The notes under the pieces: model-generated
What the model saw: the letters and a program-made list of their open reading frames with translations, nothing else
Databases searched by the model: none
Told to the model about the DNA's origin: nothing
Source of the DNA: Thunnus maccoyii
Lineage: Eukaryota > Chordata > Actinopteri > Scombriformes > Scombridae
Direction: 5' to 3'
DNA: 64,000 nucleotides
Assembly: GCF_910596095.1 (NCBI RefSeq)
Contig: NC_056552.1
Location: 15,883,111 to 15,947,110, forward strand
Translations under genes and position numbers: made by a program
Shown: positions 50,237 to 64,000 of the stretch, one piece after another
How the letters are laid out: each line of letters starts with the position of its first letter
Numbering within the stretch: position 1 is the stretch's first letter

Positions 50237-51366
50237 CTAACAGCTTGACAACAGGAATATAGAGGTAATGGGTAAAAAGAAGGACAGGAATGAGGACATG
50301 GAGAAACCTGCTGCTCCTCCTGTGGCGGCAGGAGAAGGCATGTTGCCCACTGCCTCCTTTAAGAATGACCCGAATCTTGAAGTTTTGGCAAAGATCTGAA
50401 CGTCTGCGCGGAGAGATTTGCTTCCACCTTTTGTTACAACAGCCAACTGGAACCAAGATGAATCTGACTTGCATAGCAGAGGGCCACCCTGATCACCCTG
50501 TAAATGTAAAAACAGATAGAAACATGATCATCGATCATCCAAATCTGAAAACACAAACATCTACAAACTTCTGACACAATGAAAAACAAAGTTTAGAAAC
50601 TGGTGGATGGGAAAAATTGTTTTACCTGCTGAATGTCCATGGTATACGTGCAAATGTTCTCTGAGTTAGAAACGTTCCCACAATTTGTTACTCGAGTTTC
50701 AATTTCCCGAAGACTTGTGCCAGCTCTGTCAGTGCCTAAAAAAATCCCATTTACTCATATGAATACAAACAGTCCACAAAGTACAAAGTAACTCTTGAAG
50801 ATCTACTGAAATTAAACTTCTCATGCAAACAATATGAACTTACCTGTGCTCTTGCTCCCCGTCCCCCAGCCTGCCATCCAGCATTGACTTCCAGCAGGGA
50901 AAGATCTGGCATTGCTAATGTCCACACACACAGGCTGGATATAATCACTGTAACTGACTGTTTTAGCCAGCTGCAGCAGTGCAATGTTAGGACCGGTCAT
51001 TTTGGTCACTGTAATTTTCACAACGTCCTGAGACATCTCATACTCTTCTGAGCCATCCACTAGTCGTGGGCCCAGAAACACGCTCCACTCCCTGACGTTT
51101 GGATTGGGGCTGTAGGGAGCATAAATGGCACCCTTAGAAATAAATGTCCATTTCTTAATGTCTTACATAAATAGAGAATACAAAGAGCCTGTACACTTAC
51201 ACAGAGAAGCACTGGGCAGAAGTGAGGACAAAGTTGTCAGCGATGAGGGTTCCTCCACAAGTGTAGACCCCATTTTTGTGGAGACTCACCATCCAGGGCC
51301 ACATTCCTCCGGGTACAACGCCACTGTCACCCACCTCACGACTGTTCATAGGAGCAAGACCACAAA
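50237..51366 (-). CDS. Terminal pseudoprotease module with GPI-anchor-like C-terminus
   Basis: Exons 51366-51201, 51109-50844, 50735-50626 and 50497-50237 follow the same four-exon plan and phases as the active modules but are strongly diverged. All three catalytic residues are replaced: SAQC for SAAHC (His to Gln), PNIALL for NDIALL (Asp to Asn) and GDQGGP for GDSGGP (Ser to Gln). The activation site TRIVGG is replaced by SREVGDSG, so there is no zymogen cleavage. Structural cysteines (CGLAP, QPVCVD) remain. The last about 25 residues are hydrophobic ([20 protein letters not shown]) after a small-residue stretch, as in GPI-anchor signals. Probable role: membrane anchor or binding module (inference). 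Confidence 0.85.
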
Positions 51367-63300: not shown

Positions 63301-64000
63301 GAAGCAGTGAGCAGCAGACATCACCCACTCTCTGTTGATGAGGGAACCACCACAAATATGGCCGCCAAATCTCTGCAGACTAGCCTGCCAGGGCCAACTC
63401 CCTGCTGGAGCATCTTCACCTCCAACTATCCTGGTGTTCAGCGGAGTGATGCCACACACTGGAAAGAACGTGCTCTAATAATAAGTGGATCTTTAAGCAT
63501 AAATGCTCATTCATACAAAATATATACAGAATATACTGGAACTACATAAAGTGCAGATCTACACTATTTACAATCAAATGTTATTCTCTGAAAATCTAAA
63601 ATTGAAAATGATCGTTTTGATAATTTGATAGTCACCATGTGACACTGCTGTCTGCATGGGTGTAAATTTTCATAGTACCGCAGGAGGCACCAAAGGTGTG
63701 AATTTTCAAATTGTAAGGCAAAAGTGGATAAGTGACATGCAAATTTAGAATACTTTGCTTACTTTGGTCAGGTTACTTACATTCAGCACTTAACATGCTG
63801 GATACTGCTTCTGCGGTTGTAACATCTGGTCCTGCTGTACTAGTAGCATCAGTAGTAGTAATAGTGATGACAGGAGGTGGCAGGCCAGGACAGGTGTAGC
63901 TGCTGTCAGCATCCAGCCCACTGGAGCTGAACTGGACAAAGCCTGGCTTATCAGATGTGATGTGGGAGTTGATCCAGGACTGGTAACTGGACACTCTGGA
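50237..64000 (-). CDS. Polyserase-like multi-domain trypsin-type serine protease, 3' part of a giant gene
   Basis: Reverse strand; continues beyond the right edge. Nine repeats of a four-exon S1 protease module (one partial) plus a divergent terminal module join in frame with GT-AG introns, giving 2742 visible residues. Module exons carry, in order, CG...TRIVGG with SAAHC (His), NDIALL (Asp), KDSC (S1 pocket) and GDSGGP (Ser). Phases 1-2, 2-1, 1-0 and 0-1 make the module symmetric. Linkers are Thr/Ser-rich. The gap between modules (322-324 bases) has no signal-peptide exon or AATAAA, which argues for one polyprotein rather than separate genes. The chain ends with a pseudoprotease and a hydrophobic GPI-type tail. 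Closest known architecture: PRSS36 (polyserase-2), with three domains. The number of upstream modules and the N-terminus are unknown. Trypsin-like specificity is inferred from Asp189. Confidence 0.85.
51483..52660 (-). CDS. Protease module 8 (last active module, variant linker)
   Basis: Exons 52660-52498, 52381-52113, 52002-51857 and 51768-51483. The catalytic His, Asp and Ser, and Asp189, are all present. It differs from the other modules only in the linker after SSYTCP, which reads [17 protein letters not shown] instead of the Thr-rich [16 protein letters not shown] form and is shorter (Ser exon 286 rather than 328 bases). The linker leads in phase to the pseudoprotease module, so this module sits at the boundary between amplified and unamplified parts. 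Confidence 0.88.
52985..54204 (-). CDS. Protease module 7
   Basis: Exons 54204-54042, 53925-53657, 53546-53401 and 53312-52985 (302 codons including linker). Triad and Asp189 intact. It shares with modules 5 and 6 a Phe in place of Leu early in the third exon (SLPFPKT rather than SLPLPKT). Confidence 0.88.
54529..55748 (-). CDS. Protease module 6 (Asp189 replaced by Glu)
   Basis: Exons 55748-55586, 55469-55201, 55090-54945 and 54856-54529. The triad is intact, but the third exon ends GGKESCQ where all other modules have GGKDSCQ, from a single base change near 54955. That residue is position 189 at the bottom of the specificity pocket. Confidence 0.88.
56071..57290 (-). CDS. Protease module 5
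   Basis: Exons 57290-57128, 57011-56743, 56632-56487 and 56398-56071. Triad and Asp189 intact. Phe-type third exon, as in modules 6 and 7. From here rightward the spacing is 1542 bases. Confidence 0.88.
57613..58832 (-). CDS. Protease module 4
   Basis: Exons 58832-58670, 58553-58285, 58174-58029 and 57940-57613. Triad and Asp189 intact. Leu-type third exon, like modules 1-3 and 8. Confidence 0.88.
59155..60374 (-). CDS. Protease module 3
   Basis: Exons 60374-60212, 60095-59827, 59716-59571 and 59482-59155. Triad intact. The intron after the His exon and the spacer upstream carry substitutions shared only with module 2 ('aaaatgtattgg' near 60115, 'gtacggcagg' near 60593). Confidence 0.88.
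60697..61916 (-). CDS. Protease module 2
   Basis: Exons 61916-61754, 61637-61369, 61258-61113 and 61024-60697. Triad intact. It shares private intron and spacer substitutions with module 3, and has its own silent change in the Ser exon near 60931. Confidence 0.88.
62239..63458 (-). CDS. Protease module 1 (first complete module in the window)
   Basis: Exons 63458-63296, 63179-62911, 62800-62655 and 62566-62239. Triad and Asp189 intact. Its intron after the His exon has the common form, unlike modules 2 and 3. Confidence 0.88.
63781..64000 (-). CDS. Partial protease module: Ser exon of the module upstream of module 1
   Basis: The exon is cut by the window edge. Its last 220 bases encode the C-terminal part of the catalytic domain ([18 protein letters not shown]) and the Thr-rich linker, ending in phase 1 at a GTAAGT donor. 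It shows that the array continues to the right. Confidence 0.88.

Follow-up and report, generated by a model that had tools for sequence, protein, structure and literature searches.

Prostasin (PRSS8) is a GPI-anchored, trypsin-like epithelial protease with one S1 domain that is not known to carry a degenerate second one, and fish proteases of the zebrafish prss60.x type carry one active S1 domain, followed in some fish by a degenerate second one. Tandem clusters of protease genes are common. In the accessible text of the papers cited here, chains that hold several S1 domains hold two or three of them: human polyserase-1 and polyserase-2 have three and polyserase-3 has two (PMC1435904), seven polypeptidases of Tenebrio carry two or three (PMC11172050), and a Nematostella gene encodes three (PMC6767649). 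Polyserase-1 (TMPRSS9) is described there as having a type II transmembrane motif, an LDLa domain and three S1 domains that are released; two active S1 domains are produced from one translation product. For polyserase-3, disulfides are predicted to keep the domains in the chain after activation (PMC1435904). A salmon transmembrane protease serine 9-like is induced in the distal intestine (PMC4911373), and the accessible part of a second salmon paper (PMC8285899) says nothing on domain number. The first-pass annotation of the locus described below gave two or three as the number of domains in known polyserases, and the literature searched, which was seen in part and which most subscription papers lay outside, yielded no S1 chain that exceeds three.

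We define "the window" as the 64,000-nucleotide stretch of Thunnus maccoyii DNA at C20:15883111-15947110 (a C20 coordinate is the window number plus 15883110). In a profile search, minus-strand matches to Trypsin (PF00089) extend beyond its right edge. The adjacent 40 kb was joined to the window across 1,110 overlapping bases that are identical, and the region contains no N. In the extended numbering, 18 consecutive S1 units run along the minus strand from 78308 down to 50237. The gene model built from them has 74 exons in 29.6 kb (C20:15933347-15962932) and begins with a signal exon and a microexon, followed by 17 four-exon trypsin-like modules (m1 to m17); last comes m18, a degenerate S1 domain whose tail is hydrophobic and GPI-like (Table 1). 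GT-AG ends are found at all 73 introns, and the open frame comes to 5,414 amino acids (572 kDa) without an internal stop. The stop codon, TAG, lies at 50239-50237 and so coincides with the left edge of the earlier finding, with an AATAAA 3' of it at 50043, and a TATA-like stretch was seen by eye directly upstream of the signal exon. The first-pass annotation, made from the letters of the window, had proposed at least nine tandem trypsin-like domains in one frame. Complete within the window are eight active modules (m10-m17) and m18, and the m9 Ser exon is there for the most part; the sequence to the right of 64000, where that annotation would have looked for the signal exon, supplies one such exon and the starts of nine active modules, so that the array is larger than proposed.

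The His, Asp and middle exons of the active modules measure 163, 269 and 146 bases and the Ser exons 286-349, and the units of m5-m16 are 1541-1544 bp long, in agreement with the four-exon units of about 1.54 kb seen earlier. Intron phases follow the same series along the array (1-2, 2-1, 1-0, 0-1). The predicted in-frame, phase-1 join from each Ser exon to the next His exon holds at all 17 inter-module joins; its GTAAGT donor is present in m3-m16, and m17 has GTGAGT. Tandem Repeats Finder, with 500 as its longest period, gave no report of the array.

Table 1. Features of the C20 array gene (window numbering, extended to the right) and of its C18 relatives
Feature	Position	Strand	Remarks
Signal exon, MALRKWICVLALASLLST	79822-79768 (C20:15962932), right of window	-	gene model; hydrophobic core
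Microexon, 21 bases; with the carried base encodes ESHAQLD	78524-78504, right of window	-	gene model
Rest of m9, then m8-m1	right of 64000	-	gene model
m9 Ser exon	64108-63781, cut by window edge at 64000	-	gene model
m10, active module	62239..63458	-	four exons
m11, active module	61916..60697	-	entire unit identical to that of m8
m12, active module	60374..59155	-	entire unit identical to that of m9
m13, active module	57613..58832	-	four exons
m14, active module, reference copy	56071..57290	-	Pfam Trypsin E 1.9e-76 (spliced module)
m15, active module	54529..55748	-	four exons; Glu at position 189
m16, active module	52985..54204	-	four exons
m17, active module	exons 52660-52498, 52381-52113, 52002-51857, 51768-51483	-	116-bp intron to m18
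m18, degenerate S1, exons 1-3	51366-51201, 51109-50844, 50735-50626	-	TSAQC, GPNIALL; no IVGG
m18, final exon with GDQGGP (degenerate Ser region), hydrophobic tail and TAG	50237..50497	-	
Gene B: seven active modules, ~5.44-kb units, degenerate end	C18:27529682 to about 27576115	+	exon ends checked
Gene F: four active modules, degenerate end	C18:27192021-27164031	-	tblastn mapping
Gene D: up to four active modules and degenerate end, one signal exon	C18:27292295-27264052, signal match 27292146	-	suggested by match positions only

The array has two features of a polyserase: at least two S1 domains in one gene and reading frame (the open frame of 74 exons), and at least one domain with an intact triad and a zymogen activation site. 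By motif, each of the 17 modules has the His, Asp and Ser residues together with an R/K-I/V-VGG activation site. Residue 189 is Asp in all but m15, which has Glu, and trypsin-like specificity is therefore expected in most modules; m5 deviates in the 215-219 stretch. Equivalents of Cys1 and Cys122 occur in every active module, and positions 136 and 201 are not cysteine. The active modules also have one extra cysteine beside Cys168 and one in the linker, with further ones in m1 and m5; our guess is that the two found beside Cys168 and in the linker pair with each other. The Ser/Thr content of the linkers is 29-33% in the five modules checked.

At the domain nearest the stop the picture changes. 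The three triad positions of m18 are Gln, Asn and Gln (H57Q, D102N, S195Q). Pfam scans covered one active module and this degenerate domain, which after splicing still matches Trypsin with E 5.1e-31; the S1 fold is evident from sequence. By its residues, m18 is predicted to be an S1 domain without catalytic activity, and its tail resembles a membrane tether. The earlier picture of nearly identical active domains does not extend to m18. By hydropathy, the array gene and four C18 genes (A, B, C and F) have hydrophobic C-terminal tails. As judged by hydropathy only, the tail of the array gene would most likely take a GPI anchor.

The units of m6-m16 differ at only 20 aligned columns. Over 1542 bp there is no difference between those of m8 and m11 or between those of m9 and m12, and three sites distinguish m10 from m13. 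The block m8-m10 thus resembles m11-m13, a sign that three units were duplicated together. The modules at the edges are more divergent, and different exons within one module vary in their likeness to the reference copy; this combination is as expected if unequal crossing-over and gene conversion have both acted. Such close similarity would also be found if the array had been inflated by the assembly or by recent amplification without function, so that the true gene has fewer modules. We consider this unlikely: the 20 variable columns are patterned, m1-m5 and m17 are clearly distinct, no N interrupts the region, and if m6-m16 were collapsed to a single unit the gene would still have seven active modules and the degenerate one. 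The exact number of modules does depend on the assembly, because some pairs among m6-m16 are identical.

Modules m6-m16 are also too alike to reveal selection. The ratio of non-synonymous to synonymous substitution rates (dN/dS) against m14 is 0.46 for m1, 0.37 for m2 and 0.27 for m3, and among these three modules it ranges from 0.23 to 0.39. Values for m5 and m17 are 0.61 and 0.79, and that for m4, based on 13 substitutions, is 1.03; those for m6 (0.10) and m7 (0.31) come from eight and four substitutions, too few to weigh. Introns have diverged more than exons in m1 (14% vs 6%), m2 (28% vs 9%) and m3 (16% vs 8%), as well as in m4 and m17, and about equally in m5, m6 and m10, in a comparison where some of the intron alignments contain many gaps. 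In a neutral simulation at the observed numbers of substitutions, modules remained free of stops in 9% (m1), 6% (m2), 11% (m3), 34% (m5) and 27% (m17) of cases, so that a single module alone proves little; the simulation takes modules as independent, an assumption that gene conversion violates.

The introns between modules, in order from m1 to m18, are 95, 122, 534 and 470 bp, then 322-324 bp, with a last one of 116 bp. An intron retained at any of the 17 Ser-exon donors would bring an in-frame stop after one to nine codons, within two codons at 16 of them and after nine at the last, which leaves room for short isoforms. This bears on a reading in which the array is one transcription unit that yields a ladder of products. 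Soluble chains of one to 17 domains would arise when the intron after any module is retained or holds the polyadenylation site, and full splicing would give the tethered form. The stops so close to the donors fit such a ladder, as does an AATAAA 31 bp into the 122-bp intron between m2 and m3. The stop, however, follows almost automatically from the phase-1 GTAAGTAA donor, and the other 16 spacers, including every inter-module spacer inside the window, contain neither AATAAA nor ATTAAA, so we give this reading little credence. The earlier statement that the spacers have no signal exon or AATAAA is thus correct within the window, the one AATAAA being outside it. Termination after each module, which the first-pass annotation had named as a mark of separate genes, finds a counterpart in the stops past the donors and little in polyadenylation signals.

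A signal exon for each module, the other mark that it named, was sought in several ways. No homologue of the array's signal exon or of its 250 bp upstream was found in the array spacers. A mechanical scan of the 17 spacers for an ATG that leads through an open phase-1 stretch into any GT produced candidates in 15; most of these end before GTTCTT, the most hydrophobic is in the last, 116-bp spacer before GTGTAT, and none resembles the signal exon. A whole-genome search (782 Mb in 54 contigs) with the signal exon returned seven places on C20, one serving the array and six to the left of it, and a separate search found a weaker match near window 1591-1665. It is very improbable that the array is 17 separate tandem genes whose one-gene look is accidental: a retained intron could end each module at the stops described above, but modules without signal peptides would stay unsecreted, spacers of 95, 116 and 122 bp are too short for separate genes, polyadenylation signals are nearly absent from the spacers, and the degenerate, tail-bearing end, which is present in single-module C18 genes, comes only after the last module. 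Very probably the array is one giant gene for a polyserase that has 17 active S1 domains and one dead one, and the earlier proposal of a giant polyserase is supported at the level of the gene model.

We are fairly confident that this one gene gives rise to a secreted, probably GPI-tethered chain of 17 zymogen domains with a dead S1 end, in which the number of modules varies by unequal crossing-over. In the mechanism that we propose, the signal peptide would be followed by 17 trypsin-like zymogen domains on Ser/Thr-rich linkers, with the dead, tail-bearing domain last. The activation sites could be cut by trypsin-like enzymes, perhaps by adjacent modules, and the conserved Cys1-Cys122 pair, as argued for human polyserase-3 (PMC1435904), would tie each catalytic domain to the preceding linker. 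The activated molecule would then be a covalent string of about 17 enzymes that is not released from the epithelial surface. Unequal crossing-over between the 1.54-kb units would raise or lower the number of modules while gene conversion homogenised them, and the same process may have run separately in sister genes on another chromosome. Because most modules are nearly identical, the likely benefit would be to raise the local dose of a single trypsin-like activity at the surface rather than to supply a variety of enzymes. We lean, with less assurance, towards the more specific picture of a 572-kDa tethered string in which 17 trypsin-like enzymes, each activatable on its own, are covalently joined and a pseudoprotease forms the cap, with a module number that evolves fast and is probably polymorphic. 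In this picture the dead end domain would be the fixed anchor, while the amplified block would work like a dial that sets the dose. If this is true, the molecule would be a protease counterpart of the variable-length mucins.

Relatives of the array gene were found on C18. The searches drew on the best 144 of 245 matches to the degenerate end and the best 130 of 533 matches to an active module, and other family members may exist. Four C18 genes with a degenerate end have one signal exon each and contain one (A), one (C), seven (B) and four (F) active modules. On the plus strand, one type of signal exon occurs three times in 130 kb, once before each of A, B and C, and a whole-genome search placed this exon at eight sites, all on C18. 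The 30 kb read for gene F contains one signal-exon match. Its first and last modules have KGACQ, with loss of the Asp189 motif, and PTVY in place of PGVY, which indicates that modules can diverge too. In gene B, microexon copies lie in the spacers, exact in four of six and before the first unit. We tried and rejected a reading of gene B as separate genes: the sequence found 5' of the single-module genes also matches its 3-kb spacers, but these contain no signal exon.

A tree of 32 module sequences and prostasin, for which the exon pieces were gathered by tblastn, groups modules by gene: 17 of 17 from C20 at 0.97, four of four from F at 1.0 and seven of seven from B at 0.84. The longest row, F1 (362 amino acids), includes some translated intron. 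We read the tree as three separate amplifications, in C20, B and F; conversion within genes could give the same picture. If the gene models are correct, the number of catalytic domains per chain would be scalable by amplification of an exon block, as it is for structural repeats, and the related signal and anchor ends would make genes with 1, 4, 7 and 17 modules a natural series for the study of enzyme valency at the cell surface. Genes of this kind also serve as a warning, since automatic annotation may break them up or collapse them.

C20 holds six other places with the degenerate domain among the matches listed. The two that were read are both decayed. The first has stops in its degenerate domain, and no match was obtained there for three of the four active-module exons; the second has a damaged degenerate domain and lacks any recognisable active-module exon. 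Copies that are under no constraint therefore do decay in this cluster. Other traces of the protease family, namely relic-like signal exons and a decayed Asp exon, lie on the minus strand at window 27714-27612 and 26810-26286, between integrin-like genes, and at 1665-1591, at the left edge of the window.

Among described systems, PRSS36 and PRSS53 (human 16p11.2) resemble the array gene, as far as the accessible accounts go, in being single secreted chains of tandem S1 domains of which some are inactive. Judged by hydropathy only, the signal exon and ESHAQLD would provide a cleavable signal peptide directly before the tandem S1 domains, as in that type. The two human proteins have three and two domains, whereas the array gene has 18 and a tether-like C-terminal tail; in polyserase-2 the first domain alone is active, in contrast to the 17 intact triads of mostly near-identical modules here. 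TMPRSS9, in the accessible accounts, shares several S1 domains in one translation product, two of them active. Its type II segment and LDLa domain have no counterpart in the array gene, where about 26 residues (signal peptide and microexon) precede the first cysteine of the first S1 domain and leave no room for LDLa. The best solved relative of a module is prostasin (3e0n, E 9e-67), and genes A and C, with one active module and a degenerate end, share the prss60-type plan. The best reading is an extreme polyserase of the prostasin/PRSS36 kind, probably GPI-tethered and variable in module number. On the gene models, it takes a known architecture to a new extreme, apparently by an exon-block amplification that recurs in sister genes.

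Two tandem integrin-alpha-like genes adjoin the protease array on the plus strand of the window. FG-GAP repeats were found in the ORF at 41848-42375 (+), and near-copy frames lie at 19132-19410, 20337-20783 and 43116-43562. The ORFs at 20337 and 43116, near-copies of each other, had no Pfam match. We label these ORFs integrin and liken them, presumably, to the CD11 integrins; in human, CD11 integrin genes lie near PRSS8 and PRSS36. The locus was compared with the mammalian 16p11.2 PRSS8/36/53 cluster by its integrin-alpha-like neighbours and by prostasin as best solved relative. Two retroelement-type frames were also seen in the window, one at 13464-14678 (+) with an endonuclease/exonuclease/phosphatase domain and one at 29497-30660 (-) with an integrase core and an integrase zinc-binding domain. 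A separate S1 protease gene (RIVGGMDSADGAWPWQ, GDSGGPLVCQ) lies upstream of the giant gene at C20:15979578-15982502 (-). In the genome-wide trypsin search, which scored the best 150 of 660 candidates, the matches listed include another S1 series, repeated about every 3.5 kb, at C10:12642333-12660054.
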